This document shows, piece after piece, positions 9,109 to 50,049 of a stretch of DNA of 64,000 bases. Each line of letters opens with the position of its first letter. Within the stretch, counting starts at the first letter, position 1. The translations under genes were made by a program, and so were the position numbers. The DNA is taken from assembly GCF_001719045.1 (NCBI RefSeq), contig NZ_CP015423.1, forward strand, positions 1,116,001-1,180,000. The letters are read 5' to 3'. Below the pieces are notes generated by a model, which worked only from the letters and a program-made list of their open reading frames with translations, had not been told where the DNA came from and did no database searches. The stretch comes from Paenibacillus polymyxa. Lineage in GTDB: Bacteria > Bacillota > Bacilli > Paenibacillales > Paenibacillaceae.

Positions 9109-9121
9109 ACGGCAGATCCCC

Positions 9122-10399: not shown

Positions 10400-10484
10400 T
10401 CAGTCCCTTCACGTTTTCCATTTAGCCAACTACATTTTTTACGATCCATCGGGATCAGCTTCATCCTTCAGGTGTAAAATGATA

Positions 10485-10509
10485 GCCTTCGGCTGTAAAA
10501 ACCGAAGGC
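10485..10509 (-). other. Intercistronic stem-loop after the binding-protein gene
   Basis: Perfect 8-bp arms GCCTTCGG/CCGAAGGC just past the dppA stop, followed on the minus strand by TATCATTTTA. Such hairpins usually protect the upstream mRNA or partly terminate, giving more binding protein than downstream products. That role is inferred. Confidence 0.55.
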
Positions 10510-10527
10510 ATAAGGTAAGATCACAAC

Positions 10528-34682: not shown

Positions 34683-34748
34683 ATTGTAGCCGCTAGTTGA
34701 TCTGTTCGAATATAGGGGACTCCCCTTTACCTGACAGGGGACTCCCTG
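34683..34748 (-). promoter_or_regulatory. narK promoter with twin NreC-type boxes
   Basis: -10 TACAAT at 34683-34688 (minus). Box 1 is TAGGG-GACT-CCCCT at 34713-34726, centred 34 bp from the -10 centre. Box 2 is CAGGG-GACT-CCCTG at 34735-34748, 22 bp further. Both match the TAGGG-N4-CCCTA palindrome known for staphylococcal NreC. No good -35 is present, as expected for an activated promoter. Confidence 0.75.
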
Positions 34749-34751
34749 AAA

Positions 34752-34783
34752 ATATAAAAAGCCGCTTCTATAAGAAGCGGCTT
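34752..34783 (-). terminator. Terminator of the narGHJI-nreABC operon
   Basis: On the minus strand perfect arms AAGCCGCTTC/GAAGCGGCTT around TTATA are followed by TTTATATTTT, right after the hemerythrin gene. Confidence 0.88.
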
Positions 34784-34790
34784 GGTCAAT

Positions 34791-35321
34791 TCAAGAGATA
34801 AGCGTATTTAATTTGTCACATAACTTGGTCAGATCATTCCGATTGATCTGTTGCTCTGCCATAGGAAAAAGTACGGTTTCTTCTTTTATAAAATGTACAG
34901 TCAGCACTTCAAAGGCCTCTCCCGCGTTCTTGGCTGCCTCTTGAATGTCATCAAGCGTGAGCAAACTCAAATCGCCCTCCGTCTGATGAAGAAAATGATC
35001 GATATAGCCCTCTATTTCACGGTGCTCCTCCTGTATACCGACGAGCGGCCCCTGCTCAAAACCAATGTAGGTTCCTAGCATAGAAAAGAAGTGTTCTTCT
35101 TCCTTTTCGGTATGTTTCTTGAGGGGTACCCTAAAGTCGATAATCTGCATTCTCAGTTTTTCCAGTTGCTTGCGGCCTTCTTCCAAATCTAGTATTCTGT
35201 GCTGCTCAAACCACAATACAATGGCATGCCATTCATCCATCAGATAGGTTAGATATCGATGCTCATTTTCAAGAATACGCATGGCAGGTTTGGAAAAGCG
35301 CAGTTTCTCATTTTCCAGCAC
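34791..35321 (-). CDS. Hemerythrin-domain protein in the nar-nre operon
   Basis: A 176-residue four-helix di-iron protein. Ligand His and Glu occur in ILENEHRYLTYLMDEWHA, KKHTEKEEEHFF, IQEEHREIEGYIDH and TVHFIKEETVLFPM. Likely roles are NO, oxygen or iron handling during nitrate/nitrite metabolism. The start is set at GTG 35321, eight bases after GGAGG; ATG 35336 lacks a site. It follows nreC by 22 bases and ends the operon. Confidence 0.78.
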   Translation of the reverse strand: MLENEKLRFSKPAMRILENEHRYLTYLMDEWHAIVLWFEQHRILDLEEGRKQLEKLRMQIIDFRVPLKKHTEKEEEHFFSMLGTYIGFEQGPLVGIQEEHREIEGYIDHFLHQTEGDLSLLTLDDIQEAAKNAGEAFEVLTVHFIKEETVLFPMAEQQINRNDLTKLCDKLNTLIS

Positions 35322-35343
35322 GCGGATTTCCTCCATTCATCGG

Positions 35344-35994
35344 CTAAAAATCCAGCATTTTTTTCTTTAATGCATATTGGACCAGTTCAGGCCGGCTTCT
35401 TAAATTCAATTTTTCCATGATCTTCGCTTTGTTCGCTTCCACCGTCTTGACAGAGATGAACAGCTTTTCCGCAACTTCCTTGTTACCGTAACCTTTTGCG
35501 ACCAGAGGCAGAATCTCCAGTTCCCGCTTGGACAGGATCTCATAAGGATCTTCTGATTGTGACGTCGTATCTTTTTTGATGAACTCACGAACGAGAGAAG
35601 TAGCCATTTTAGGATGGATATAAGTCCCACCCCCATGAATGGTTCGTATAGCAAGCAATAGCTCCTCATCTGGAGCATTTTTCAAAACATACCCTGAAGC
35701 ACCATTCTTTAAAATATGAAAAAGATATTCTTCATCATCATGCATGGTCAGAATCAGAATTTTAGTATCAGGGTGGTCTTCTTTAATCTTGCCTGTGGCG
35801 ATCAATCCACTCTCGCCTGGGGGCATGCTGAGGTCCATGATCAGAATATCTGGACGATATTTAGCTACCATTGTATACGCTTCAATGCCGTCTGCAGCCG
35901 TTCCAACAACCTCCATATCCGATTGGAAGTTCAAAATCATGGAAAATCCGCTCCGTACAATTGCATGGTCATCCGCTAACACAATTTTGATCAC
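35344..35994 (-). CDS. nreC: Response regulator NreC
   Basis: 216 residues. A receiver domain ([19 protein letters not shown], with the phospho-Asp in [15 protein letters not shown]) is joined to a LuxR/NarL helix-turn-helix ([20 protein letters not shown], then [16 protein letters not shown]). Phosphorylated NreC activates narG, narK and related promoters. Start GTG 35994 follows AGGAGGAG and lies four bases past the nreB stop. The same window carries palindromes fitting its known site. Confidence 0.9.
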
Positions 35995-35998
35995 GTCT

Positions 35999-37063
35999 TT
36001 ACTCCTCCTCATGTCCAATCGGAATTTTTAAAAATACTTTGGTTCCTTGACCAACATTTGAAAGAACGCCAAAACTTCCACCTACCAGTTCTGCTCTCTC
36101 CTGCATGCCATATAAACCAAGTCCCGTTCCAATAGGATTGCTCCCCTTTTCAAAGCCAACCCCATCGTCCTCTACAGTCAAACGAAGCGTATGATCGTGC
36201 TCAGACAAAGAAACTTTAACCATATCTACCTGGGCATACTTCAAGGCATTGAGAACAGCCTCCTGGCAGACACGGTAAATGACCGTTTCCTTTTCACTTC
36301 CATATCGCTTTTGGGGAAGATCCGACACAAATTCAACGACAAGACCAAAGCTTTGTTCAACCCTCTTAAAGTGGGAACGAAATGCTGCTTCAAGCCCAAA
36401 ATCATCAAGTGTGGCGGGGCGTAGTTCCACAGACAGGTTGCGGATATCATCCAGCAATCGCGTCATGGATGCTTCAGTCTGCTTCATGTTTTTGATAAGC
36501 TGTTCATCATTCGTCATGTATTTTAACACCCGCAGCTCAACAACCGCACTCATCAATTCCTGGGCGACGCTGTCGTGCAGTTCCCTGGAAAGCCGTTTAC
36601 GCTCATTTTCCTGCGCTTCAATGACATGCTTCATCATTTTGTTTTGATACAATTTTTCCTGCGTCTGAAATTGCGGAGTCAAGTCCCTCAACATCAACAC
36701 CCTTGTTCCATGTTCAGAATCAATGGTGTGAAAAGAAGCGGCATAGGGGATCATTCCGTTGCTCTTTGTTTCCAGATAAACCTGAAAAGAAGCGAAATCC
36801 TTGGATTCTGGCATATTGAAATAACAATCAAGGCAGGTACGGGGCTCCGTTTCGCTTGTATAGCCCCTGCATGTTCCACACAAAGCTTTTTCCTTCCCTT
36901 CATAGAGTTGAATGAGGACGTCATCGCTCACAATCTCCTCCGCTGCCGGGTTCATAGCTAGGGTGTTCCCTTGCCCATCAAAAAAGAAAATGGCTTCTGT
37001 ACTGTTCTCAAACAACTTCACCATTAGCGCATTCAAAGAGCCAGTCCCTACAGATAATGTCAA
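35999..37063 (-). CDS. nreB: Oxygen-sensing histidine kinase NreB
   Basis: A 354-residue soluble kinase. The N-terminal PAS has four Cys at 62, 65, 77 and 80 with spacing C-x2-C-x11-C-x2-C, as in staphylococcal NreB where they bind an oxygen-labile 4Fe-4S cluster. A HisKA_3 dimer helix follows with [15 protein letters not shown], then an ATPase domain with DDGVGFE and GTGLGLYGM. Active without oxygen, it phosphorylates NreC. The TTG start at 37063 directly follows the nreA stop codon. Confidence 0.9.
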
Positions 37064-37516
37064 TTACATCACTTCCTTCCCGTTCAACTCTCCAAATCCC
37101 CTATGCGCCAAAGCTTCCAAATCACGCATCATGGCTGCGGTCATCAGCAGTTCTTCCCGAAATCCACCAAGCAGTACGCCCGCGACGCGAGCATCATTCC
37201 ATAGGGGAACAGCCCCGAGACTCTTGAGCTTCTCGGATTGAACGATCGGGTAGTTAAACAGGTTGTCTGCCCCCACATATTGATGAACAGATGGAATGAA
37301 AACGGATTTCCCAGTTTTGAACACGACTCCTGCTATGCCCTTTCCGGATTGCAGTACAATTCGCTTAAAGCGATCATTTAAATTACCGGCTGCATTTTTC
37401 CATTTAATTACGTATTGATATTCGGCCGGTTCAACCAGAGCAAGCGCCATGAAATCATAACCGAAATGTTCGCGTATTCGCTCAAGCTCCCTTTGATAAT
37501 CCATCCTATTATTCAT
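37064..37516 (-). CDS. nreA: Nitrate-sensing GAF protein NreA
   Basis: A 150-residue single GAF domain: QYVIKWKNAAGNLNDRFKRI, VLQSGKGIAGVVFKTGKSVF and GVLLGGFREELL. NreA binds nitrate and, when empty, holds NreB in the inactive state; length and operon order (nreA-nreB-nreC) match the staphylococcal system. It follows narI by 45 bases, so sensor and enzyme share one transcript. Confidence 0.85.
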   Translation of the reverse strand: MNNRMDYQRELERIREHFGYDFMALALVEPAEYQYVIKWKNAAGNLNDRFKRIVLQSGKGIAGVVFKTGKSVFIPSVHQYVGADNLFNYPIVQSEKLKSLGAVPLWNDARVAGVLLGGFREELLMTAAMMRDLEALAHRGFGELNGKEVM

Positions 37517-37561
37517 CGCTCTCTCCTAATAGAATTAGGAAAGAAGGCAGAGCCCGCTTTC

Positions 37562-38248
37562 CTAATTCGATTTATGTCTTCTGTAAAGGATATAACTTCT
37601 GCGCACATAATTCAACGGAACACTCCACACATGTACAAGCCGGGTAAACGGCCAGAATGCAAAAATCGCAAAGGCCATAAGGATATGAAGCTTGAAGGAC
37701 ATCGGTACGTCTCTCATCAGTGTCGGGTCGACACGGAATATGAATAAACCGCGGAACCAGATTGAGATCGTCTCTCGATAATCGAATTCTGGCTGTACCG
37801 CATTCGTTACGAGAGTCGCAAACATCCCCATGCATACAATGGCCAAAAGCAATACGTTTACGATCAAATCAGACGCTGTACTTAAACGGCGCACATTGCG
37901 TATTGTAAAACGGCGAGAGGTGAGAATCAACATACCGAGGAACGTCATGGCTCCGAATATACCACCAATATAAACTGCCCCAATATGATACAGATGATCA
38001 TTTACACCCAGTGCATGCATCCAGGTTTTCGGTATGCCCAGACCGGACACATGCCCCATAATAACCGGGATGATACCCAGGTGGAACAAGAGGCTTCCGA
38101 TCATCAATTGTTTTTTTTCAATAAACTCACTTGATTTCGCTGTCCAATTGAACTGGTCGTTTCTGTAGCGGAAAATATGGCCTACAATAAAGACGACCAC
38201 GCACATATAAGGGAAAATGACCCATAAAAACTGCTCTAGCATCATCAT
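37562..38248 (-). CDS. narI: Respiratory nitrate reductase gamma subunit NarI
   Basis: A 228-residue membrane cytochrome b with five helices and haem-ligand His residues in FIVGHIF, FHLGIIPVIMGHVSG and FKLHILMAF. It takes electrons from menaquinol and passes them to NarH. The start is ATG 38248 behind AGGAGG and overlaps the narJ stop by four bases; the frame open to 38275 lies inside narJ. Confidence 0.93.
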   Translation of the reverse strand: MMMLEQFLWVIFPYMCVVVFIVGHIFRYRNDQFNWTAKSSEFIEKKQLMIGSLLFHLGIIPVIMGHVSGLGIPKTWMHALGVNDHLYHIGAVYIGGIFGAMTFLGMLILTSRRFTIRNVRRLSTASDLIVNVLLLAIVCMGMFATLVTNAVQPEFDYRETISIWFRGLFIFRVDPTLMRDVPMSFKLHILMAFAIFAFWPFTRLVHVWSVPLNYVRRSYILYRRHKSN

Positions 38249-38811
38249 TGCGCGGCCGCCTCCTGTTCTACGCAAGCTTTAAGCGTTTCGCGCAGTCCCT
38301 TCACCAGATGAAAATACGGGCTTTCCATTTTTTCCAGTGCTTTAAGCAAATGATATGTGCCGTCTTCCAGGATCGCGATTGGCATGCGGAAGTTTTCTGT
38401 CGTCTTCGGATCTTGCGCCCATTCGGCGGCATACAGAAATTCACACATGAGCGGAAGGTAATCTGGCAGCTCTCCATCTGGCATTTCAAGACCGTACATC
38501 TCATATAGCACCTTTAACTTGACCAACATTTGTCCCCGTTCTTTTGCATCTTCGAATTTAAAGTAAGTCATATATAGTGCACAATTCTTTTGAAAATCAA
38601 AGGTTTCCGTATACATTTCCTGAATCTCTTCCATACTGAACTCTTGCATAAGGGACCAGTAGGTGTTCGCATACGTATATGCCGGATGGTTCGGATCAAA
38701 CGATGCTTCCAGAAAAGCTGGATGAAAATCCAGCTTTTCCGGGTACATGAGTTGCTGAGCGAAAAACCCGAATGATGGCTTGCATTCATACAACTTCGCT
38801 ACATTAATCAC
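38245..38811 (-). CDS. narJ: Nitrate reductase assembly chaperone NarJ
   Basis: 188 residues of the TorD/NarJ type. It is helical, with PDYLPLMCEFLYAAEW as the family core. It binds the NarG twin-arginine-like N-terminus and assists molybdenum cofactor insertion. Start taken as GTG 38811, which overlaps the narH stop in GTGATTAA with GGGGG eight bases upstream; ATG 38841 would lie deep in narH. Confidence 0.88.
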   Translation of the reverse strand: MINVAKLYECKPSFGFFAQQLMYPEKLDFHPAFLEASFDPNHPAYTYANTYWSLMQEFSMEEIQEMYTETFDFQKNCALYMTYFKFEDAKERGQMLVKLKVLYEMYGLEMPDGELPDYLPLMCEFLYAAEWAQDPKTTENFRMPIAILEDGTYHLLKALEKMESPYFHLVKGLRETLKACVEQEAAAQ

Positions 38812-40381
38812 GCCAAATACCCCCGTAGAAGTTTTCTTCATACATTTCTTTGCCCGTTTTCAAAGGCTCTTCCATCCCCATCGAACTTGCCATACTACAG
38901 CCGTCACATCCAGAGCCAGAACCCATGTTTCCCATGGTATCGCCGTAACCAGCAGATCCTTGAGCCCGGTACGGATTCGAATATCCTTCTTTATGTGATG
39001 TCGGAATGACGAAACGATCCTCATACTTGGCAATCGCCAGAAGTCGATACATCTGCTCAGTCTGCCGCGGTGTCATGCCGATGCGCTCAAGACGGCTTTC
39101 ATCGAAAGGTTGTCCTGTGGATTGGGCACGCATATAGGAGCGCATCATAGCCATTCGCTGCAAGGATTCCTTCACAGTTTGCGTGTCGCCCGCTGTCAGC
39201 ATATTGGCAAGGTACTGAATAGGGGTGCGCATCTCTTCGATAGCCGGAAAGATCATATCGGGATTCTCAATTGAGTCTTTCCCTTCAAAGTAATTCATGA
39301 TCGGACTGAGTGGTGGCACATACCAGACCATAGGTAATGTGCGGTATTCCGGATGAAGCGGGAATGCCAGCTTGTGCTCAATAGCAAGCTTGTAGACCGG
39401 CGAGTTCTGCGCTGCTTCAATCCAGTCCTCCGAGATACCGTCTTTTCTCGCTTGAGCAATCACTGCCGGATCACTTGGATCCATGAACAGGTCGCATTGC
39501 GCTTTATAAAGCTCTTTCTCATCCTGCGTAGAAGCGGCCTCAAGCACTCGATCCGCGTCATACAGCATAACGCCGAGGTAGCGAATTCGTCCTGTACATG
39601 TCTCGGAGCAGACTGTCGGCAGACCAGCTTCCACACGTGGGAAACAGAAGGTACATTTTTCCGCTTTGTTCGTCTGCCAGTTAAAGTACACTTTTTTGTA
39701 TGGGCAGCCCGTCATGCAATACCGCCAGCCACGGCAGGCTTCCTGATCCACGAGCACGATTCCGTCCTCGTCCCGTTTGTACATGGCACCCGAAGGACAT
39801 GACGCGACACAGCTCGGATTTAAACAATGTTCGCAAAGCCGTGGGAGATAAACCATGAACGACTTCTCAAAGTTAAATTTAATTTCTTCTTCAATTTTTT
39901 GAATATTTGGATCAAGCGGACCCGTTACATGCGCACCCGCCAGATCATCTTCCCAGTTTGGACCCCACTCCAAATCCATTTTCTCACCGGTTACCGCAGA
40001 ATGTGCACGTGCCACAGGTGAATGCTTCTGTTCGCCAGCGTTGGTCAGTTGCTCGTAATTATAAGTCCAGGGCTCATAATAATCTTTCATTTCCGGCATG
40101 TCTGGATTGTAAAAAATCTTACCCAGTGCTATCTTGGACAGCTTGTTGCCTGACTTCAGTTCTAGTTTCCCTTTGCGGAGCTGCCAGCCCCCTTTATATA
40201 ATTCCTGATCTTCCCAGCGCTTCGGATAACCGATACCCGGTTTGGTTTCCACATTGTTAAACCACATATATTCCGCACCTTTGCGGTTCGTCCAGGTTGT
40301 TTTACATGTCACGCTGCACGTATGACAGCCAATACACTTATCCAGGTTCATGACCATGGCAATTTGAGCTTTAATCTTCAA
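38804..40381 (-). CDS. narH: Respiratory nitrate reductase beta subunit NarH
   Basis: A 525-residue iron-sulfur subunit with four Cys clusters: CIGCHTCSVTC, CEHCLNPSCVASC, CRGWRYCMTGC (the Trp marks the 3Fe-4S site) and CTFC...CSETC. It shuttles electrons from NarI haems to NarG. TTG 40381 follows GGAGG by nine bases and overlaps narG by 11. Its C-terminus ends in a Gly/Ser/Cys-rich stretch (SGSGCDGCSMASSMG) that I do not recall as a core NarH feature. Confidence 0.95.
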   Translation of the reverse strand: MKIKAQIAMVMNLDKCIGCHTCSVTCKTTWTNRKGAEYMWFNNVETKPGIGYPKRWEDQELYKGGWQLRKGKLELKSGNKLSKIALGKIFYNPDMPEMKDYYEPWTYNYEQLTNAGEQKHSPVARAHSAVTGEKMDLEWGPNWEDDLAGAHVTGPLDPNIQKIEEEIKFNFEKSFMVYLPRLCEHCLNPSCVASCPSGAMYKRDEDGIVLVDQEACRGWRYCMTGCPYKKVYFNWQTNKAEKCTFCFPRVEAGLPTVCSETCTGRIRYLGVMLYDADRVLEAASTQDEKELYKAQCDLFMDPSDPAVIAQARKDGISEDWIEAAQNSPVYKLAIEHKLAFPLHPEYRTLPMVWYVPPLSPIMNYFEGKDSIENPDMIFPAIEEMRTPIQYLANMLTAGDTQTVKESLQRMAMMRSYMRAQSTGQPFDESRLERIGMTPRQTEQMYRLLAIAKYEDRFVIPTSHKEGYSNPYRAQGSAGYGDTMGNMGSGSGCDGCSMASSMGMEEPLKTGKEMYEENFYGGIWRD

Positions 40382-43300
40382 GCCAGTTAACCTCCTTCAT
40401 TTTACGTACCGCAACGTACACATCGCGCTGGTTGCCGATCGGACCATAATAGTTGAATCCATAACTAAGCTGAGCATATCCACCGACCATCTGAGTTGGT
40501 TTGAGATGAATTCTTGTAGGTGCGTTATGACTACCGCCGCGTGTATCCGTGATTTCGGAGCCTGGCACTTGAATGTGCTTATCCTGAGCATGGTACATGA
40601 ACATCGTTCCTCTTGGCATCCGATGGCTGACAACGGTCCGGGCGGTTACGACGCCGTTACGGTTGTATACCTCTACCCAGTCATTGTCGGCAAGATCGTG
40701 TGCCTCTGCGTCTTCGTTGTTGATCCACACCGTAGGACCTCCGCGAAACAGTGTAAGCATGTGCTGGTTATCCTGGTAGGTGGAGTGAATATTCCATTTA
40801 CCGTGCGGTGTCAGATAACGGAGCACGAGTGAATCTTGCCCGCCTTTTATTTCCCGATCGCGAGGGCCGAACACCATTGGCGGTAGCGTCGGTTTGTAGA
40901 TCGGCAATGATTCCCCAAATTGTTGGAAAATCTCATGATCAATATAGAAATGCTGTCTTCCCGTCAAAGTACGAAACGGAACGAGACGTTCAATATTCGT
41001 TGTAAATGGTGAATAGCGGCGTCCCTTCTTGTTCGATCCAGTGAATACTGGTGTCGGTATAACTTCCCGTGGCTGCGCCGTTATACTTTGGAAAGTGATC
41101 CTTTCCGCTGCCCGATCGGCCGAGATATCTTTGAGTTCCACACCGTGAAGCTCTTCTGCCTGCTCATAAGCCTTTTGCGACACCCGTCCATTAGTCGCGG
41201 ATGAAAGGTGCAGAATTGCATTGGCTACTTGGCGAGCTGTCTGGATTTTGGGCAGCCCGTCTTTAATGGATTCATCGTAGTAAACTCCGTTCAACTTTTT
41301 CATTTCCTCATATTCGTCCGCTACGGAGAAGCTGACGCCATGCGCACCTGCTTTCCCACTAGTCAAATTCGGACCGAGTGAGATAAATTTATCGTGAATT
41401 TTAGTATAATCGCGTTCGATGATGCTGAAATTCGGCATGGTTTTACCCGGAGTCGCTTCAATCTCGCCCTTCGTCCAATCCTTTACAAGACCCATCGGCT
41501 GTGAAATTTCGCCTATACTATCGTGTGCGAGCGGCGCAGTCACAAGGTCTTTATATATGCCTGGCAGGTACTCTTTTGCCATATCGGAAAAGACTTCGGA
41601 AAGCTGGCGGTAAATATCCCAGTCCGCGCGGGATTCCCACAGAGGGTTTACAGCCGGATTAAACGGATGCACGAAAGGATGCATGTCTGTTGACGACAAG
41701 TCTGTTTTTTCGTACCAGGTTGCCGCCGGAAGCACGATGTCCGCGTACAATGGAGTTGTTGTCATCCGGAAATCAAGTGCTACCATCAAATCAAGCTTTC
41801 CTTCTACATCTTCTCTCCAGACAATTTCCTCAGGTTTCTGTTCTTCGTTCGGCCGGGCAAGCAGGGCATCAGATGCTCCGAGTAAATGTTTCATGAAATA
41901 CTCTTGTCCCTTCGCCGAACTGGAAATCAGATTTGACCGCCAAACAAAGAGTGAACGCGGGAAGTTCTCGGCTGCCCCAGGATCTTCTACAGCGAAGCGT
42001 GTCTTACGTGATTTAATCTCTTCCACAGAATGATTGATGATGTCCTCGTTCGACTTCTTGCCTAATTGTGCAGCCTCTTCGGCGAACAACAGACTGTTTT
42101 TATTAAACTGTGGATAAGAAGGCAGCCAACCCAGACGTGCTGCGAGCACGTTGTAGTCTGCTGGATGTCTGTAACTGACATCCCCGCCAATCGGTGACTT
42201 CAAGGTGTCTGTTCCACTTTCTTCGTAACGCCACTGCTCTGTTGCAAAGTAGAAAAACGATGTAGCATTTTGCTGCCGAGCCGCCCCTTGCCAGTCTTTT
42301 GCAAAAGCAATCGTTGACCAGCCTTCGATTGGGCGGAGCTTTTCTTGACCCACATAATGCGCCCAGCCTCCACCGTTTACACCTTGGGAAGCAGTCAACA
42401 CGACAAGATTCAAGATGGATCGATAGATCGTGTCACTATTGAACCAGTGGTTGATACCCGCACCCATAATAATCATGGAGCGACCTTTAGTATCGATAGC
42501 ATTTTGGGCAAATTCCCGAGCAATCTGTACCACAACAGACGCCTTCACACCTGTGATCTTCTCCTGCCAGGCAGGGGTATAATGCGAAGCTTCGTCGTAA
42601 TAATTTTTGGCGTTATGAGAGCTGTCATTGCGTGCGACACCGTACTGGCTCATCATCAAATCGTACACAGTTGCTACGTAACGTTCCGAGCCATCTGCCA
42701 TGCGTACTTTTTTGGCCGGAATTACACGTTTGAACGTTCCATTACCGGCGTTATCAAAGTAAGGGAATACGATTTCTTCCCATTGCTCGCCATGACCTTC
42801 CACAGTGAGCGCGGGCTCAACCTTTGTTCCATCTTCCCGTTCCAGAATCAGGTTCCATTTCTTATCCTGCTCCCAGCGCTGTCCCATCGTACCGTTCGGG
42901 ACCAGCATTTCCCCCGCCGCTTCGTCATATATGACCGGCTTCCAGTCCGCATGCGGCGAAGCATCCCCCAGGTCACTCGCCCGTAGAAAACGTCCACCTT
43001 TCCAGGCTCCCTCGTGTGGATCAAGCAGAATCATAAACGGCATATCCGTATATTGTTTGGCATAGTTAATGAACATCGGTTCTTGGCGATCTTTGTAAAA
43101 CTCATCCAAAATAACATGCGTCATAGCCTGGGCTACGGCAGCATCTGTACCCGGATTTGGGGCAAGCCAGTTGTCAGCGAACTTCACATTCTCCGCCAAG
43201 TCGGGAGCCACTGATACGACTTTTGTTCCCTTATATCGTACTTCCGTCATAAAATGAGCATCTGGCGTCCGGGTAAGCGGTACGTTCGATCCCCACATAA

Positions 43301-44045
43301 TCAGGTAACCCGCATTGTACCAATCAGAAGATTCCGGTACATCCGTCTGCTCACCCCAAATTTGAGGAGATGAAGGAGGAAGATCGGCATACCAGTCATA
43401 AAAACTCAACATCTGCCCACCCAGTAGCGAAATGAATCGGGCTCCTGAAGCGTAGCTTATCATTGACATCGCCGGGATTGGCGTAAAGCCCGCAATCCGG
43501 TCAGGACCGTATTTACGAATGGTATAGATGAGTTGTGCCGAGATCAGACGCAGGACATCGTCCCAAGTGACACGGACATGACCGCCTTTTCCGCGAGCTG
43601 ATTTGTAGAGCTTGGCTTTCTCTGGATCTTCCACAATGCTTGCCCATGCTTCCACCGGATTGGTATGCTCCTGGATGGCCGCCTGCCAAAGCCGCAACAG
43701 CTTACCGCGCATATAGGGATATTTAACGCGTAATGGACTGTATTCATACCAGGAAAATGTAGCCCCACGCGGGCATCCCCGCGGTTCAAATTCTGGCATA
43801 TCTACACCGCAGGAAGGATAATCGATCTGTTGATTTTCCCAGGTAATGATGCCGTTTTTGACAAAAACCTTCCAACTACAGGAACCGGTGCAGTTCACTC
43901 CGTGAGTCGTCCGAACCACTTTGTCGTGAGACCAACGCTGACGATACACGTTTTCCCATTCTCTATTTTTTTCCTCAAGGATTGACCAATTTCCCGAATA
44001 GCTTTCGATCGGTTTAAAAAAGTTGAGGTTGTATTTCTTTTTCAT
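40371..44045 (-). CDS. narG: Respiratory nitrate reductase alpha subunit NarG
   Basis: 1224 residues. The FS0 cluster ligands are His48, Cys52, Cys56 and Cys91 (HGVNCTGSCSW...RGCPRG), and the molybdenum Asp lies in FYDWYADLPPSSPQIWGEQT. It reduces nitrate to nitrite at the cytosolic face as part of NarGHI. ATG 44045 after AAAGGAGTG; the extra 13 codons to 44084 have no support. First gene of an eight-gene operon ending at 34791, with NreC-type boxes upstream. Confidence 0.96.
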   Translation of the reverse strand: MKKKYNLNFFKPIESYSGNWSILEEKNREWENVYRQRWSHDKVVRTTHGVNCTGSCSWKVFVKNGIITWENQQIDYPSCGVDMPEFEPRGCPRGATFSWYEYSPLRVKYPYMRGKLLRLWQAAIQEHTNPVEAWASIVEDPEKAKLYKSARGKGGHVRVTWDDVLRLISAQLIYTIRKYGPDRIAGFTPIPAMSMISYASGARFISLLGGQMLSFYDWYADLPPSSPQIWGEQTDVPESSDWYNAGYLIMWGSNVPLTRTPDAHFMTEVRYKGTKVVSVAPDLAENVKFADNWLAPNPGTDAAVAQAMTHVILDEFYKDRQEPMFINYAKQYTDMPFMILLDPHEGAWKGGRFLRASDLGDASPHADWKPVIYDEAAGEMLVPNGTMGQRWEQDKKWNLILEREDGTKVEPALTVEGHGEQWEEIVFPYFDNAGNGTFKRVIPAKKVRMADGSERYVATVYDLMMSQYGVARNDSSHNAKNYYDEASHYTPAWQEKITGVKASVVVQIAREFAQNAIDTKGRSMIIMGAGINHWFNSDTIYRSILNLVVLTASQGVNGGGWAHYVGQEKLRPIEGWSTIAFAKDWQGAARQQNATSFFYFATEQWRYEESGTDTLKSPIGGDVSYRHPADYNVLAARLGWLPSYPQFNKNSLLFAEEAAQLGKKSNEDIINHSVEEIKSRKTRFAVEDPGAAENFPRSLFVWRSNLISSSAKGQEYFMKHLLGASDALLARPNEEQKPEEIVWREDVEGKLDLMVALDFRMTTTPLYADIVLPAATWYEKTDLSSTDMHPFVHPFNPAVNPLWESRADWDIYRQLSEVFSDMAKEYLPGIYKDLVTAPLAHDSIGEISQPMGLVKDWTKGEIEATPGKTMPNFSIIERDYTKIHDKFISLGPNLTSGKAGAHGVSFSVADEYEEMKKLNGVYYDESIKDGLPKIQTARQVANAILHLSSATNGRVSQKAYEQAEELHGVELKDISADRAAERITFQSITAQPREVIPTPVFTGSNKKGRRYSPFTTNIERLVPFRTLTGRQHFYIDHEIFQQFGESLPIYKPTLPPMVFGPRDREIKGGQDSLVLRYLTPHGKWNIHSTYQDNQHMLTLFRGGPTVWINNEDAEAHDLADNDWVEVYNRNGVVTARTVVSHRMPRGTMFMYHAQDKHIQVPGSEITDTRGGSHNAPTRIHLKPTQMVGGYAQLSYGFNYYGPIGNQRDVYVAVRKMKEVNWLED

Positions 44046-44119
44046 CGATGACCAACACTCCTTTTTAGAAAGAATCATCCCCACGCAAGTTCCAAGGGAA
44101 GACTCATTCGCTTACTCTC

Positions 44120-44184
44120 ATTATGTAATTCATTCATCTCTGTTCCCATTAGGGAATGTCCTATAGCGCTACAGGAAATCCCTC
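44120..44184 (-). promoter_or_regulatory. narG promoter with twin NreC-type boxes
   Basis: -10 CATAAT at 44120-44125 (minus). Box 1 at 44150-44163 reads TAGGG-AATG-TCCTA, again centred exactly 34 bp from the -10 centre. Box 2 at 44171-44184 reads GAGGG-ATTT-CCTGT on the minus strand and is 21 bp further. No TGTGA-N6-TCACA type Fnr site is visible here. Confidence 0.7.
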
Positions 44185-44201
44185 GTTCTATGGAAAGATA
44201 C

Positions 44202-44232
44202 AAAAAAGCCTCCCCCTGCTACAGGGAAGCTT
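44202..44232 (-). terminator. Terminator of ric-modA-modB
   Basis: On the minus strand AAGCTTCCCTG/CAGGGGGAGGCTT, with a bulge, is followed by TTTTTTG, twelve bases past the modB stop. Confidence 0.8.
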
Positions 44233-44243
44233 GTATGAAGTAA

Positions 44244-44921
44244 TTAATTGTTCTTTTGACCCGTTAACAGGAGCATGATAAAAGAAATGAGTATGATAGA
44301 GCATGTCCACGCCCACGCCATAGGAAGATGACCAGCATCCACTGCAATATAAATGGCCGTCGGAATCGTTTGAGTTTTACCCGGAATATTTCCGGCAATC
44401 ATCAGCGTAGCACCAAATTCGCCCAGGCCACGGGCAAAACCGAGTATGAAGGCAGCTTTAAAAGAAGGGAAAATTAAAGGGAAGGTGATGTATCGAAAAA
44501 CCTGCCATTCACTTGCACCCATCGAACGTCCCGCGTTTTCCAAGTCCCGGTCAACAGAAGACAATCCCATTCTCAGCGTCCGATAGACTAGAGGAAAAGC
44601 TACTACCACCGCTGCTATAACCCCTGCCCACCACGAGAATATAATAGGCTCGCCAAACCATTGCTCCACAAACCGTCCGAACCCGCTTTTTCGTCCAAGT
44701 AATATGAGCAGTAAAAAACCAACAACCGTCGGTGGGAGTACCAAAGGCAGCATAAGCACGGTTTCAACAACCGTTTTCCCTTTAAATAATCCCAACCGCG
44801 ACATTGACCATGCCACAAGCAAGCCTAATATGATTACGAGAACGCTAGATAACAGTGCAACCTGCAACGATAATCGGATAGGAGGCCAATATTCATTCCA
44901 ATCTATATCTTGCATGCTCAC
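44244..44921 (-). CDS. modB: Molybdate ABC transporter permease ModB
   Basis: 225 residues with five helices. The permease EAA loop is ENAGRSMGASEWQVFRYITF, and TVVGFLLLILLGRKSGFGRF and GEFGATLMIAGNIPGKTQTI are typical of ModB. The GTG at 44921 overlaps the modA stop by four bases; ATG 44915 is an alternative. No modC ATPase gene follows: a terminator ends the unit, so the ATPase must be encoded elsewhere. Confidence 0.9.
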   Translation of the reverse strand: MSMQDIDWNEYWPPIRLSLQVALLSSVLVIILGLLVAWSMSRLGLFKGKTVVETVLMLPLVLPPTVVGFLLLILLGRKSGFGRFVEQWFGEPIIFSWWAGVIAAVVVAFPLVYRTLRMGLSSVDRDLENAGRSMGASEWQVFRYITFPLIFPSFKAAFILGFARGLGEFGATLMIAGNIPGKTQTIPTAIYIAVDAGHLPMAWAWTCSIILISFIMLLLTGQKNN

Positions 44922-45769
44922 TTCGGTATGTTAAATCCATACTTATCCATAATATTCAGAGATTCTTGCGATTGTAAGTATGCATAAAAGTCTTCGGCTT
45001 CTTGAATGTGCTTTGTAGCTTTGACAATCCCGATTGGATACTCAACAGGTGAATAGGTTTTGGGATTCACCTCAAAGGCGATTTTTGCCTTTTGTGAAGT
45101 CAATGCATCTGTTTTATATACAAATCCGACATCTGCATTCCCAGTTTCCACATATTGCAGCACTTGTCTAACGTCTTTCGCTTGAACCAGCTTGCTCTGT
45201 AACGTGTCCCAAAGCTTCGCTTTCGTCAGCGCTTCCTGTGCGTAGTTACCCGCTGGAACACTTTCAGGAATTCCGATTGCAACTTTCTTCACTTCTTTTT
45301 TTGTTAAATCGGTTACACTCGCGATGTTCATCGTCCCATCTTCAGGGCTAACCGCGACCAATTCGTTCGTCAGCCACGTTTTTTGTTTTTTCGTATCTAT
45401 TAACTGCTGATCAACAAGGGGCTTCATGTTTTTGGTCGAAGCGGACAGAAACAAATCCGACGGCGCTCCTTGCTCAATTTGTTTTTCCAACGCACCAGAG
45501 CCGCCGAAGTTAAAATTCAATTTAATGCCTGTATGGGTTGATTCGTATGAATGCTGAATTTCTTTGAGCGCATCCGTTAAACTTGCTGCTGCGGATATGG
45601 TAAGCTCAATAGTTTCAGCCGTTTTCGAAGATGTCTGGCTGGAAGATCCGTTCTGATCCGAACTGCTAACATTTGAATCTAGTTGTTGTTTCGTACCGCA
45701 TCCTGATAATAATAAAATGATGGACATAACCAAAACGAAAACAGTGCTACTTTTAATTAATTTATGCAT
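44918..45769 (-). CDS. modA: Molybdate-binding lipoprotein ModA
   Basis: 283 residues. The lipobox is LLLSGC (Cys24), then a Ser-rich linker and the ModA fold (LTISAAASLTDALKEIQHSY, then NFGGSGALEKQIEQGAPSDL). It captures molybdate or tungstate for ModB. Directly after ric (29-base gap) and in the same unit, so molybdenum uptake rises with nitrate reductase. Confidence 0.92.
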   Translation of the reverse strand: MHKLIKSSTVFVLVMSIILLLSGCGTKQQLDSNVSSSDQNGSSSQTSSKTAETIELTISAAASLTDALKEIQHSYESTHTGIKLNFNFGGSGALEKQIEQGAPSDLFLSASTKNMKPLVDQQLIDTKKQKTWLTNELVAVSPEDGTMNIASVTDLTKKEVKKVAIGIPESVPAGNYAQEALTKAKLWDTLQSKLVQAKDVRQVLQYVETGNADVGFVYKTDALTSQKAKIAFEVNPKTYSPVEYPIGIVKATKHIQEAEDFYAYLQSQESLNIMDKYGFNIPK

Positions 45770-45798
45770 TTGGTTCGGCTCCTCATGTTAGTTCATCA

Positions 45799-46518
45799 TC
45801 AATTAATCGGTTTCGCTATTAGCTGTGCCTGTCTCGTACGTTCGATCAGTGTACAATTTTCAAGAAGAATATGATTAAAAATATCTGCTTCCAGGTCTTC
45901 TAACCGCTTCAATACGAGTCGGTGCGTACCACAAGCTTCCTGCATCGGCTCAAAGCCGTTTGTGATCAAGCGCATTTCCTTCAGGAACTCCACCACCGTT
46001 TGATGCTCGTCTTGCAACTTGGACAAAATTAGATTCAACTCATCTGCTCGTTCCACTGTTGATTCTTGTAAAAATGCTTCAATCATCGGAAACACAAGGT
46101 CCTCCTCATTTTGAATATGTTCCGATAATTCCTGTTTAAGCAAGGTGAACAATTCATTAACTCGCTTGAGATGCGAATAACGTTCACCGTGAACCCGCGT
46201 TAGTTTGGTTACATACGGCGTTAAGGCCGATAGTTCTTCCCGAAGCTTCGTATGATACTCATTTTGAATATAGGCGATTAGTTCTTTTGGTTCGAGTGAA
46301 GGAGGTTGCATTTGCTTATGCTGTGCCTGCTTTTCTTCCACTTCATGTATCTGCGTCAGCAGTTCACCAGCGTGGAGGCCTCGATTGGCTGCTGCTTCAC
46401 GGAGCGATATTTTCCCTCCACAGCAGAAATCAATTCTCAGTTTGCGGAACAGATCTCCCGTTTTGGGTACTGCTTTCACGATGTCCGCCACCCATGTTTC
46501 TTCCGTTAACTGGCTCAT
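45799..46518 (-). CDS. ric: Iron-sulfur cluster repair di-iron protein (Ric/ScdA)
   Basis: 239 residues. The N-terminal ScdA domain has KLRIDFCCGGKISLREAAAN, followed by a hemerythrin domain with di-iron ligands in LTRVHGERYSHLKRV, SEHIQNEEDLVFPM and LQDEHQTVVEF. Ric proteins restore Fe-S clusters damaged by NO or oxidants, a need during nitrite reduction. ATG 46518 behind GGAGGAA is preferred to ATG 46533. First gene of ric-modA-modB, with an NreC-type box upstream. Confidence 0.9.
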   Translation of the reverse strand: MSQLTEETWVADIVKAVPKTGDLFRKLRIDFCCGGKISLREAAANRGLHAGELLTQIHEVEEKQAQHKQMQPPSLEPKELIAYIQNEYHTKLREELSALTPYVTKLTRVHGERYSHLKRVNELFTLLKQELSEHIQNEEDLVFPMIEAFLQESTVERADELNLILSKLQDEHQTVVEFLKEMRLITNGFEPMQEACGTHRLVLKRLEDLEADIFNHILLENCTLIERTRQAQLIAKPIN

Positions 46519-46560
46519 CTTCCATTCCTCCATTTTACTTCGATTTTATACTCAACTTTC

Positions 46561-46604
46561 ATTCTACGTCTCCCTTAAAGCTGAACCAATCAGGGGGTTC
46601 CCTC
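46561..46604 (-). promoter_or_regulatory. ric promoter with NreC-type box
   Basis: -10 TAGAAT at 46561-46566 (minus). The box CAGGG-GGTT-CCCTC at 46591-46604 is centred 34 bp from the -10 centre. The position 22 bp further upstream holds only a poor match. Confidence 0.65.
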
Positions 46605-46622
46605 TTTCACTAGTGGAAAGAG
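46602..46622 (-). other. Hairpin after hemY, next to the ric control region
   Basis: CTCTTT-CACTAGTG-GAAAGAG forms a near-perfect inverted repeat six bases past the hemY stop. There is no T-run, so it is at best a weak terminator; it may also insulate the ric promoter. Confidence 0.45.
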
Positions 46623-46627
46623 CCTGA

Positions 46628-48049
46628 TTATAACAAATCAGAAAGCAACTGTTCAGCCGCTTCTTTCCCTTGAGCGATACAATCTGGAATTCCAACGCCC
46701 CCATAGCCGGCACCGCATAGAAAAACACCCGGTAAATACTGTGCGAAGTCCTGTCTCATCTTCGCCATATGCTCTTTGTGTCCAATCGGATATTGCGGCA
46801 TCGATCGATCACACCTACTGACTTCAACGAATTCCGGTTCCGCTTCCAGGCCCATTAAATCTTTCAAATCTTTGCGCGCGGCATCCACAAGTTGATCGTC
46901 TGTCATCTGAATCCAATCCTGTGCGCCTGCATGTCCGATGTAGGTCCGTAAAAGCGTATATCCTTCAGGAGCAGTATGGCTCCACTTCGTCGAAGACCAA
47001 GTACATGCTGTAATCTTTTTGCCTTCTTTGCGAGGGACTAGAAATCCCGTTCCCTCAAAAGCAAAATTAAGATCTGTGTTTTTATAAGCAAGAGCAATAT
47101 TGGCTACGGAAACATAGTGAATCTTGTGTAACCAGCTAGCGCTTGCAACGCCGGAAAATAATGTAGCCGCTTCAAAAGCTGGAACAGCGCAGATCACCGC
47201 ATCCGCATCTATTTTTTGTCCGTGTTCTAAAATGACCTGATAACCGCTTTCCTTCCTTACTTCAACTACACCTTGCCCCATAACAAAACGTACGGTATCC
47301 AGCCTTTCCTTTAGCCGCTCCACGATCGTAGATAATCCTAGCCGATAAGAAAGAAACATACTTTTCTTAGCGATATCCGGCAGTTTGTCTTGTACTGCTG
47401 GCTTTCTTCCCGCCCCTTTAGACATACCCTTAATCAAACTTCCATGCTTTTGTTCCATTAGTTTAAATTGAGGGAAAGTTGACATAAGGCTCAGAGAATG
47501 AGTATCCCCAGCGTAAATTCCAGACAGCAGAGGTTCTGTAATCTGGTCCAGAACTTCTTTGCCAAGACGCCGTTTGATAAAATCACCTAGAGATTCGTCC
47601 GCATCACCTTTCTTCGCCGGAATGATTAAATCCAGGGCTGCCCGTGCTTTTCCCAGTGGAGAAATAAGTCCTGTCCGAATGAAAGGAGTCAGCTTTGTTG
47701 GGATGCCCAGAATGAAGCCCATCGGCATCGTATGAAGTTTGCCCTTATGCAAAATGCAAGCAGATTTGGCTTTCGGGTTTGTCGATACCAGCTCTGCTTC
47801 CAGCCCCAACTCCATGGTCAGATCCAATATTGCCGTCTTTCTGGCCAAGAAAGCATCCGGTCCTTTTTCGATCATAAAATCGTTTTGGCGAACGGTTTGC
47901 AGCTTTCCTCCCAGACGTTCACTTTTCTCCACCAGTGTAATCTCCACTTCAAGCTGCCGATCCTCAGCCAGCTTTTTCACATAAAAGGCAGCACTTAAAC
48001 CACTTATTCCTCCACCGAGAATAACGACTTTTTTAGAACTTTTTTTCAT
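46628..48049 (-). CDS. hemY: Coproporphyrinogen III oxidase HemY/CgoX
   Basis: 473 residues. N-terminal FAD-binding VVILGGGISGLSAAFYVKKL, and the C-terminal CGAGYGGVGIPDCIAQGKEA closes the FAD site. In Gram-positives this enzyme makes coproporphyrin III by a six-electron oxidation in the coproporphyrin-dependent haem pathway. Start ATG 48049 behind GGAAAAG overlaps the radical SAM gene by 17 bases. A separate hemEHY operon is usual in Firmicutes, so this may be a second copy dedicated to nitrate respiration. Confidence 0.88.
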   Translation of the reverse strand: MKKSSKKVVILGGGISGLSAAFYVKKLAEDRQLEVEITLVEKSERLGGKLQTVRQNDFMIEKGPDAFLARKTAILDLTMELGLEAELVSTNPKAKSACILHKGKLHTMPMGFILGIPTKLTPFIRTGLISPLGKARAALDLIIPAKKGDADESLGDFIKRRLGKEVLDQITEPLLSGIYAGDTHSLSLMSTFPQFKLMEQKHGSLIKGMSKGAGRKPAVQDKLPDIAKKSMFLSYRLGLSTIVERLKERLDTVRFVMGQGVVEVRKESGYQVILEHGQKIDADAVICAVPAFEAATLFSGVASASWLHKIHYVSVANIALAYKNTDLNFAFEGTGFLVPRKEGKKITACTWSSTKWSHTAPEGYTLLRTYIGHAGAQDWIQMTDDQLVDAARKDLKDLMGLEAEPEFVEVSRCDRSMPQYPIGHKEHMAKMRQDFAQYLPGVFLCGAGYGGVGIPDCIAQGKEAAEQLLSDLL

Positions 48050-49148
48050 GAAAACACTTTTCCTCTCCAACCCCGGGTATATAAGCGCAATAAGGGTCAC
48101 TCTCCAAATAGTCTCCTGTTATTGCAAAAGCCCTTGCTCTGGAGCCCCCACAGATGGCCTTGAATTCACAGACTCCACATTTACCTTTAAGTAGGGACTT
48201 ATCTCTAAGATTCATCATGATCGGAGAGTTGCGATAAATATCTGCCAGGCTATCGTTTCGTACATTCCCGCACATAAGAGGCAGAAAACCGCTCGGGTAT
48301 ACTTCTCCGATATGACTAATAAAAACAAATCCATCTCCATCATTTACGCCTTTAGGAGCACGTCCTAAAACATCTGCCCTCTTTTGTTCGTCTGCTACAC
48401 TGCTCTCACCTGCATTGTGCTTTTGCTGCAGTACGACCCTCCGGTAGTGGGGAGCTTCTGTAGCCTTCACACCGTACGGCATCTGTTGCTGTATTTGATA
48501 CAACCATTTCATTACGGCTTCATGCTCATCAGGAGTAATCATATCTTTCTCCATGCCACGTCCGGTTGGAACAAGGAAAAATAAACTCCATAACACGGCC
48601 TGCATTTCCTTTACCCTTTCTGCAATTCGCTCCAGATCATGGAGGTTGTACCGGGACACCGTAGTGTTCACTTGAATAGGGATATTCAGCTCCTTTAAAT
48701 AACCAATTCCTCGCATGGTTGTATCGTAGGAACCCACCGTACCCCGAAAATGATCGTGAATGTCTGCACATGAACCGTCCAGACTAAACGCCCACCGCGA
48801 TAACCCAACTTGCTTTGCTTTTTCTACCGCTGCTCGTGTCACTTTAGGTGTGGCACTGGGGGTCATCGAAACCGACAGATTTTTCTCTTCAATTGCATAT
48901 CGAGCCAGTTCAAACAGATCAGGACGCATCAAAGGATCTCCGCCTGTGAACACAACCAACGGATGATTCATTTCAGCGATTTGATCTATCAGCTTCTTAC
49001 CTTCTTCTAGTGTCAGCTGGCGAGGATCAGGTTTGTACTGAGCTTCCGCTCTACAGTGAAGGCACTTTAAAGCACAAGCTCGTGTAACCTCCCAGATGAC
49101 TATAAACGGATCTGTATGATAATCACGCGGCGTTTTCAAAGATATCAT
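48033..49148 (-). CDS. Radical SAM/SPASM protein, NirJ/AhbD-like
   Basis: 371 residues. The radical SAM cluster is Cys25, Cys29, Cys32 (CALKCLHC), with GGDPLMR as the SAM-binding motif. A C-terminal SPASM-like Cys set includes CGVCEFKAICGG and SDPYCAYIP. Such proteins include AhbD and NirJ, which modify haem side chains, and uncharacterised Bacillus relatives (I recall family TIGR04053). Its overlap with hemY supports a porphyrin substrate. It could act as an oxygen-independent step of haem synthesis, but the reaction is not proven. Confidence 0.8.
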   Translation of the reverse strand: MISLKTPRDYHTDPFIVIWEVTRACALKCLHCRAEAQYKPDPRQLTLEEGKKLIDQIAEMNHPLVVFTGGDPLMRPDLFELARYAIEEKNLSVSMTPSATPKVTRAAVEKAKQVGLSRWAFSLDGSCADIHDHFRGTVGSYDTTMRGIGYLKELNIPIQVNTTVSRYNLHDLERIAERVKEMQAVLWSLFFLVPTGRGMEKDMITPDEHEAVMKWLYQIQQQMPYGVKATEAPHYRRVVLQQKHNAGESSVADEQKRADVLGRAPKGVNDGDGFVFISHIGEVYPSGFLPLMCGNVRNDSLADIYRNSPIMMNLRDKSLLKGKCGVCEFKAICGGSRARAFAITGDYLESDPYCAYIPGVGEEKCFHEKKF

Positions 49149-49162
49149 TGATGTCTCTCCTT

Positions 49163-49876
49163 TTAGAAGTATAAAAACAACACAAAAACATAGAGCATCA
49201 TTGAAAATCCAATTTCCGCCATGCCAACTTGTTTTGCCTTTAATCCAAGTTTAGGAAGCCATATGGCCCGTATCAAAAAAATCGAAAAAGGAACAAACAG
49301 AGCTAACTTTAACCAAGTAGCAAACAACAAAATCACCAAATGATAGATGATGGAAGCATAATGGTAACGTATATTTTTTCTTTCACGAATGATCGTTTTG
49401 ACATACAAAGCAGTTCCGATAAAGTAAAGCACCAAAAGCAAGAATAACTCTGTTGCTACTCTCCAATCCTCTCCTCCCCCCATATAAATAACGGGGTATA
49501 TAAAAGAACAAAAGAGTAGAATTGCAACAATGTCATTGAGTAAAGCACGTTCATTTTTCGTTTTTGCAAAATAAATATTAGCCATAAAAAAGAGCAATAG
49601 AAGAACCCCATACCAGATCAAGGCAGGCTCAAACCATATCAGTGAAATTAACAAAGGAAGTAATATCACTCCGTATACAACGGCGGGTTTGCGGTATCTT
49701 TCACTGCTGCCTGTTTTGATCCATTGGAGGACAGGAAAACTGAATAAGTAGATAAAAAACCAGCACACAAATAGGGGGATATGAATGAGTTCCCCTCGAG
49801 AAGCAGCTAAACCGAATAAAAATGGAAGAATGAGCATGGCCCAAGCTCCATGTTGATTGGGTATGTATCTGCTCAT
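49163..49876 (-). CDS. YwiC-like integral membrane protein
   Basis: About 237 residues with seven or so membrane helices. The conserved YIPNQHGAWAMLILPFLFGL opens the family domain known as YwiC-like, named for a B. subtilis gene beside narGHJI; the fold has similarity to polyprenyl transferases such as CtaB. ATG 49876 is preferred because it lies directly before the family domain; ATG 49951 sits too close to its GGGGG. Function unknown; the neighbours suggest haem or quinone biosynthesis. First gene of ywiC-radical SAM-hemY. Confidence 0.72.
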   Translation of the reverse strand: MSRYIPNQHGAWAMLILPFLFGLAASRGELIHIPLFVCWFFIYLFSFPVLQWIKTGSSERYRKPAVVYGVILLPLLISLIWFEPALIWYGVLLLLFFMANIYFAKTKNERALLNDIVAILLFCSFIYPVIYMGGGEDWRVATELFLLLVLYFIGTALYVKTIIRERKNIRYHYASIIYHLVILLFATWLKLALFVPFSIFLIRAIWLPKLGLKAKQVGMAEIGFSMMLYVFVLFLYF

Positions 49877-49983
49877 CCCCTTCAAACCCTTGATCCTTTT
49901 TTCACAATCTTTTTTATGTCTGTTATTTCGGTTAATCGATTCATCATCCATTCCCCCAAGATTGAGTTTTATCTTCTAACTTC

Positions 49984-50049
49984 ATTCTAAGTATTATATG
50001 AAATTGAACCAATTAGGGAGTTCCCTTTTCCTTAGGGGGGAAAATCCTA
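49984..50049 (-). promoter_or_regulatory. ywiC promoter with twin NreC-type boxes
   Basis: -10 TAGAAT at 49984-49989 (minus). Box 1 TAGGG-AGTT-CCCTT at 50014-50027 is centred 34 bp from it. Box 2 GGGGG-AAAA-TCCTA at 50036-50049 is 22 bp further. The plus-strand hemerythrin gene starts at 50121, with TATACT at 50079-50084, so the boxes could serve both directions. Confidence 0.65.

Follow-up and report, generated by a model that had tools for sequence, protein, structure and literature searches.

In staphylococci, the response regulator NreC recognises the palindrome TAGGGN4CCCTA, and the motif CX2C-X11-CX2C of the sensor kinase NreB belongs to its oxygen-labile iron-sulfur (Fe-S) cluster. The regulon of this NreABC system, which includes narGHJI, nir and narT, is treated in the consulted parts of two reviews (PMC8139620, PMC5694512). 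In Bacillus licheniformis, NreBC is sulfide-responsive and controls sqr and pdo, with a site reported to be similar to that of staphylococcal NreC (PMC9918477, in the sections available). Here we analyse a window of 64,000 nucleotides from Paenibacillus polymyxa (assembly GCF_001719045.1, contig NZ_CP015423.1, positions 1,116,001 to 1,180,000), in which an island carrying nreABC has four promoters, those of narG, narK, ric and ywiC, each with an NreC-like palindrome whose centre is exactly 34 bp away from that of a -10 hexamer. We regard it as quite probable that NreC activates all four from twin boxes, and that the last of them drives an anaerobic haem unit.

A described case of haem synthesis tied to anaerobic growth is that of Haloferax volcanii, where deletion of ahbD strongly impaired anaerobic growth only; haem rescued the mutant, and denitrifying growth was restored partly and only with added dimethyl sulfoxide (PMC5746218, in the passages available). 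For the step catalysed by the H2O2-dependent ChdC, the accessible text of PMC10965808 states that the oxygen-independent replacement is still unknown.

Four promoters of one design

The boxes and hexamers of the four promoters are as follows.

34683..34688, reverse strand: narK -10 hexamer TACAAT, 34 bp from the box centre and kept in 14/14 islands of the clade
34713..34726, reverse strand: narK proximal NreC-like box (12-mer 34714-34725, GGGGAGTCCCCT), two mismatches to TAGGGN4CCCTA
34735..34748, reverse strand: narK distal box AGGGAGTCCCCT, 22 bp upstream of the proximal one; the best twin-box match of the genome, with one mismatch
44120..44125, reverse strand: narG -10 hexamer CATAAT, 34 bp from the box centre
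44150..44163, reverse strand: narG proximal NreC-like box AGGACATTCCCT, one mismatch to TAGGGN4CCCTA
44172..44184, reverse strand: narG distal half-degenerate box, AGGGATTTCCTG or GAGGGATTTCCT, 21 or 22 bp upstream by register
46561..46566, reverse strand: ric -10 hexamer TAGAAT, 34 bp from the box centre
46591..46604, reverse strand: ric proximal NreC-like box AGGGAACCCCCT, an exact composite (defined below), two mismatches to TAGGGN4CCCTA
46614..46625, reverse strand: ric distal degenerate box AGGCTCTTTCCA, 22 bp upstream, a twin-box match with three mismatches
49984..49989, reverse strand: ywiC -10 hexamer TAGAAT, 34 bp from the box centre
50014..50027, reverse strand: ywiC proximal NreC-like box AGGGAACTCCCT, an exact composite, one mismatch to TAGGGN4CCCTA
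50037..50048, reverse strand: ywiC distal box AGGATTTTCCCC, 22 bp upstream of the proximal one

A preliminary description of this DNA had given the positions of the four palindromes, their distance of exactly 34 bp to the -10 centre and the presence of nreABC in the same island (at 35344-37516), all of which were confirmed. The form TAGGG-N4-CCCTA that it gave holds for the palindromes but not as a perfect match, each of the four having one or two mismatches; the second copy that it had placed 21 or 22 bp upstream in narG, narK and ywiC is present, but the degenerate copy at 22 bp in ric had been overlooked. Near copies resembling AGGCTCTTTCCA are present in the ric promoters of relatives. Each -10 hexamer matches at 5/6, and the -35 region reads TTGGTT in ric and ywiC and holds nothing recognisable in narK and narG, so that these promoters would be weak and need an activator. 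A TATAAT at 25 bp in the ywiC promoter was tried as the -10 and set aside, since it is not conserved; TAGAAT at 34 bp is kept in 14/14 island promoters of the clade.

Conservation and chance

Upstream regions of orthologues were taken from the window, the island loci of 18 relatives (L059-L076), 80 named loci (the best 80 of 110) and 20 probable-Staphylococcus loci (from 20 of the 26 such genomes found). A promoter was counted where a box of at least 7/8 stood exactly 34 bp, centre to centre, from a -10 hexamer of at least 5/6, and chance was modelled by first-order simulations, 20 per set. This arrangement precedes narG in 98/113 regions (52/64 once near-copies were removed; simulated mean 0.05), narK in 60/93 (30/51; simulated mean 0), ric in 12/33 (3/17; 0.05) and ywiC in 14/55 (6/42; 0.1), the larger counts containing seven genomes twice. 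Many of the misses are register shifts of one base, and for narG and narK the next peaks include distances of 55 and 56, those of the distal box. The lack of conservation upstream of orthologues, which the preliminary description had named as a ground for giving up its reading, was not observed in these non-redundant sets.

Outside the clade of the window, an 8/8 box occurs in four of 14 ric promoters, from Indiicoccus, Paenisporosarcina and Sporosarcina (Caryophanaceae) and from Psychrobacillus (Bacillaceae); the hexamer at 34 bp scores 6/6 in Sporosarcina, 2/6 in Psychrobacillus and 4/6 in the other two, and no box was found in the remaining ten (Paenibacillus, Shouchella). By these promoters, ric appears to be an NreC target in several genera. 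The narG promoters of probable Staphylococcus have a box of at least 7/8 at 34 bp from the -10, with AGGG 21-22 bp upstream, in 20/20 cases. The spacing, which the preliminary description had read from this sequence, is thus the known NreC design and not a new one. The term "local nitrate regulon" needs amending, as an fnr-linked GAF-NreC2-NreB2 operon elsewhere in the genome uses the layout too, which takes it beyond the island and beyond nitrate genes. The proposed extension to ric-mod and a porphyrin unit stood in so far as the boxes at 34 bp are conserved, with the limit that boxes at this spacing upstream of ywiC occur in a single clade only. Overall, the original observation was confirmed, and these comparisons support its interpretation.

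The palindrome alone was rejected as evidence, since the window holds 13 matches at two mismatches or fewer where 15.4 are expected, and so shows no enrichment. A composite of the 12-base core AGGGN4CCCT, 25 bases and TANAAT, with the reversed pattern as control, was searched for in 149 genomes, including the window's own (5.76 Mb). Its exact form occurs at three places in the own genome (control, 0), namely ric, ywiC and G000:C1:3253334, which lies beside an nreC paralogue (53% identity); all three are in loci with an nreC gene. The composites of narK and narG have one and two mismatches, respectively, and at up to two mismatches the genome holds 123 places against 100 for the control, hardly above it, so that only exact matches and the orthologue tests are informative. 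Across the 149 genomes there are 66 exact places in 43 genomes, against 17 for the control. Twenty-two of them, classed by sequence, are of the ric/ywiC type and fall in 14 genomes, every one NreA-positive; 29 stand directly upstream of an NreC2 gene (counted by position just upstream of the NreC2 match, and including the gafA2-type promoters of G017, G037 and G076); and the remaining 15 are no more than in the control. A twin-box search of the own genome at up to three mismatches gave nine places against four for the control: narK with one mismatch, ywiC and a place in no known setting with two, and ric and five others with three; narG was not recovered at this threshold.

Several observations on relatives stand apart from these counts. 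In twelve narK promoters (L143, L146, L147, L149, L155-L159, L161, L163 and L164) the box reads AGGGAACTTCCC, a palindrome shifted by one base, and a TGTGAA...CAC-like element lies between box and -10, hinting at joint control by NreC and Fnr. Three genomes (G006, G032, G033) have a second, distinct narG elsewhere. The island of L061 is in decay, with narJ matched in two frames and ric as fragments only.

The nreABC genes and the nitrate genes of the island

The genes concerned are the following.

35344..36018, reverse strand: nreC, LuxR-type response regulator (Pfam Response_reg and GerE)
35999..37063, reverse strand: nreB, sensor kinase (HisKA_3/HATPase by Pfam), with CX2C-X11-CX2C at Cys 62, 65, 77 and 80
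37064..37516, reverse strand: nreA, GAF nitrate-receptor homologue (NCBIfam NF038250)
33471..34625, reverse strand: narK, nitrate/nitrite transporter (TIGR00886, 206 bits, under the cut-off of 312)
37562..44084, reverse strand: narGHJI (NCBIfam narG, narH, narJ and narI all over cut-off; narG open reading frame 40371-44084)
44244..46533, reverse strand: ric-modA-modB unit behind the ric promoter, assumed to be a single transcript

NreC is 69-73% identical to the NreC of three probable-Staphylococcus genomes, and nreABC lies directly behind narGHJI in the window and in 17 of the 18 relatives' loci, the eighteenth (L076) being without narG. Judged by eye, the likelier start of narG is the ATG at 44045, after AGGAGTG. 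The recognition helix of NreC (35344-36018) reads VKTVEANKA in the window's clade and VKTVEAHKA in most relatives; the N variant is found in 20 of 97 NreC rows (some genomes counted twice), 19 of them from this clade and one from L135, and the change from H to N in the clade is without obvious change of the box. Within nreB, about 90 bases past its start, an 8/8 core palindrome AGGGAACACCCT at 36959-36972 may be a coincidence of codons.

The ywiC operon and its proposed role in haem synthesis

The operon behind the fourth promoter holds three genes.

49163..49951, reverse strand: ywiC, first gene of the operon (Pfam YwiC)
48033..49148, reverse strand: radical SAM/SPASM protein of family TIGR04053, AhbD-like (492 bits, over the family cut-off of 395)
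46628..48100, reverse strand: second HemY, of the coproporphyrinogen/protoporphyrinogen oxidase family (TIGR00562, 389 bits, cut-off 98)

It is a candidate for an oxygen-independent end of haem synthesis because NreC box and Fnr palindrome alternate on it and because TIGR04053 genes elsewhere have denitrification neighbours. The genome has another HemY (G000:C1:4777511), 50% identical to that of the island, and one ChdC. In a HemY search of 15 genomes, all 12 with the radical SAM gene hold at least two HemY genes or matches (in G010, two of the three matches are pieces of one gene), and the three that lack it have one HemY each, except G086 with two. A tree from which both G010 pieces were omitted separates radical SAM-linked from presumed housekeeping HemYs by one branch (98/100), with an unsure deep rooting and a long branch for G136, where about 1.9 kb separate the hemY and radical SAM genes. 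Within the genus, TIGR04053 is found in 25/46 narG-positive genomes versus 0/29 narG-negative ones.

Further afield, TIGR04053 was matched in three control genomes, two of them over the cut-off; one of the three is Haloferax volcanii, and we infer that its HVO_2144 is the TIGR04053 protein. Among plasmid records with a TIGR04053 relative (37 found), nitrite reductase genes lie nearby in three of the five opened. In Halobellus and Halorussus the gene is near nirK and an annotated cbb3-type oxidase subunit I gene, here read as norB-like, and in Halorussus an annotated protoporphyrinogen oxidase is also close; this neighbourhood is the setting described for HVO_2144. Halarchaeum has an oxidase-like gene near TIGR04053 without nirK, and in Thermus the neighbours encode nitrite reductase, YwiC, a DUF542 protein and an oxidase-like product. 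The Deinococcus ficus gene does not match this pattern, as it adjoins genes for sirohaem and for sulfite/nitrite assimilation. A 2.9-kb record labelled as a Campylobacter jejuni plasmid (NZ_CP029056.1) carries a TIGR04053 gene 61.5% identical to that of the window and looks like a contaminating contig. Among the papers searched, none mentions TIGR04053 and none joins AhbD, nitrate, Fnr and heme; those that bring together NreC, nitrate and Paenibacillus look unrelated.

The radical SAM protein might instead be a haem d1 (NirJ-like) or peptide-modifying enzyme of nitrite or NO metabolism. The Thermus neighbourhood speaks for this, as do the score below the AhbD equivalog cut-off and the presence of NirJ and peptide maturases among related models. 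It nevertheless seems doubtful, as AhbD is the best model after TIGR04053 (371 bits, against 230 for NirJ2, 189 for NirJ1 and 161 for NirJ), the gene is paired with HemY in Paenibacillus and lies near the protoporphyrinogen oxidase of Halorussus, and two haloarchaeal neighbours are NirK, a copper enzyme that needs no haem d1. A search of solved structures with the protein gave six matches, all to distantly related radical SAM proteins.

NreC box and Fnr palindrome on one operon

In 14/14 island genomes the operon begins with ywiC behind an NreC box at 34 bp, and no Fnr palindrome of at least 9/10 (the threshold used, on a scale of ten) was found upstream of ywiC in any of the 14. Two further NreA-positive genomes (G017 and G037), with radical SAM gene and hemY on another contig, have the 8/8 box AGGGAAGTCCCT with TAGAAT at 35 bp, and no Fnr palindrome of at least 9/10 in these promoters. 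Among NreA-negative carriers of the same genus, the operon has a 9/10 Crp/Fnr palindrome in 9/9, either TGTGATTCATCTCACT or TGTGATTCTTCTCACT, located 75-107 bases ahead of the start codon; no 7/8 box stands within 300 bp in eight of them, and the ninth (G072) has one at 294 bases, far from the promoter. Simulated sequences reached 9/10 in 15 of 1740 cases. Of 15 carriers outside the genus, searched over 300 bp upstream, the palindrome is present in five; in four others the radical SAM gene adjoins narK, in one it accompanies ywiC and ric, and the last five have neither feature. An operon that carries the NreC box in some genomes and the Fnr palindrome in others offers a testable case of regulator replacement. 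We are evenly poised on the wider proposal that Paenibacillus has an anaerobic haem branch, in which a TIGR04053 coproheme decarboxylase and an oxygen-independent HemY paralogue replace ChdC, and that the operon has passed between Fnr, in genomes without NreABC, and NreC, in those with it.

An fnr-linked NreC2 module

The third exact composite of the genome stands in front of gafA2-nreC2-nreB2. A Crp/Fnr-type gene, encoding a protein with cysteines clustered at its C terminus, is oriented divergently from this operon. NreC2 was found in 108/149 genomes, and a box at 34 bp is present in 27 of the 30 best-scoring NreC2 loci fetched. The cysteine motif of NreB is missing from NreB2, which therefore probably responds to another signal. 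No sqr or pdo was found among seven open reading frames scanned in the 16-kb stretch of the module. Beside the module, locus L058 has long open frames on both strands at 8856-11703, perhaps ribosomal RNA; the frame 8992-11703, when scanned, gave no Pfam match. In seven genomes (G005, G018, G051, G053, G081, G120, G141), narG has an NreC2-like regulator (54-60% identity) at a distance of about 3.5-6 kb and the NreA search (E-value 1e-20) was empty, possibly a third arrangement of nitrate control.

The island boxes could be read by NreC2 instead of, or together with, NreC, placing the island under two inputs. The recognition helix ISVKTVE.(H/N)K is common to NreC and NreC2 and absent from the six other LuxR-type regulators compared from the same genome, the promoter of the nreC2 operon has the same box and spacing, and NreC2 is widespread. 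Yet exact ric/ywiC-type composites are confined to NreA-positive genomes (14/14), though NreC2 is far commoner, nreABC is located in the island itself, and the ric/ywiC sites are present in G062, where no NreC2 was matched at an E-value of 1e-75; we consider a role of NreC2 at the island unlikely.

A proposed mechanism and the evidence against it

We propose that phosphorylated NreC would bind as dimers to the two tandem palindromes, two helical turns apart. With the -10 centre taken near -9.5, the proximal box would be centred at about -43.5 and the distal one at about -65.5, and the proximal dimer would lie against the -35 region, giving class-II-like activation when oxygen is low and nitrate present. 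The targets would be narGHJI-nreABC, narK, the Fe-S repair and molybdate unit ric-modAB, and ywiC-radical SAM-hemY. The most likely role of the last unit is to provide the haem b of NarI through an oxygen-independent end of haem synthesis: HemY would oxidise the porphyrinogen, and the AhbD-like radical SAM protein would decarboxylate coproheme in place of ChdC. The switch at ywiC probably turns on oxygen-free haem synthesis.

Several points weigh against this proposal. NreA scores 144 bits against a cut-off of 175 for NF038250 (E-value 1.9e-42), and the radical SAM protein, at 371 bits, is below the cut-off of 500 of the AhbD model TIGR04545. The 14 island genomes form one clade and their count is not one of independent events; outside this clade, no ywiC box with a -10 at 34 bp was found, and inside it the ric box is lost in L070 and ric is broken in L061. 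The nine Fnr-type genomes share two near-identical sites and are not independent events either, and 10/15 carriers outside the genus have no palindrome of at least 9/10 in 300 bp. Nine of the 40 TIGR04053 carriers among the 149 genomes are without a narG match, and the control genome of Bacillus subtilis, a nitrate respirer, has no TIGR04053 match, so that the candidate cannot be a general answer. Finally, HemY-type oxidases are described as oxygen-dependent in the text available of PMC10965808, which is at odds with a HemY in an anaerobic regulon.

That the palindromes are chance GC-rich repeats at promoters under Fnr or ResD only is so improbable that it can be set aside: in its favour, the palindrome by itself is no commoner in the window than expected by chance and Fnr-like sites occur in some relatives' narK promoters, but the fixed spacing, the twin box and a conservation far above simulation refute chance statistically, and ywiC is without an Fnr palindrome of at least 9/10 in 14/14 island genomes (ResD sites were not searched).

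If NreC acts as proposed, its promoter grammar of a twin box and 34 bp to the -10 would be portable across Bacilli and usable to read regulons from sequence. Nitrate respiration in Paenibacillus would be linked to Fe-S repair and also to a candidate for the oxygen-independent ChdC replacement, the gap stated in the portion seen of PMC10965808.

Comparison with known systems

Another oxygen-requiring step of the coproporphyrin pathway is solved by CgoN/YtpQ, an oxygen-independent coproporphyrinogen oxidase (PMC10965808, as far as accessible); the radical SAM protein is here proposed for a different step, that of ChdC. A further parallel is H. volcanii (PMC5746218, in the passages available), where the gene of the anaerobic haem synthase AhbD (HVO_2144) shares a promoter palindrome with denitrification genes and a ChdC-type protein serves aerobic growth. 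The archaeal palindrome is CGAA-X4-TTCG, whereas the operon here is preceded by either an NreC box or an Fnr palindrome and has a HemY paralogue behind the radical SAM gene. NreBC of B. licheniformis resembles the nreC2 module in having an NreC-type regulator without NreA, but the module has a GAF partner, and signal and targets differ in the accessible account of that system (PMC9918477). The island itself is closest to staphylococcal NreABC (PMC8139620, in the parts consulted), with nreA behind narGHJI, the cysteine motif of NreB, twin palindromes and 34 bp at narG. It differs in that ric-modAB and ywiC-radical SAM-hemY would also be targets and in that NreA appears divergent, falling below the cut-off. 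The box and its spacing are therefore a known design in a new host group, to which the ric and haem targets, the exchange of regulators and a paralogous module are the additions.

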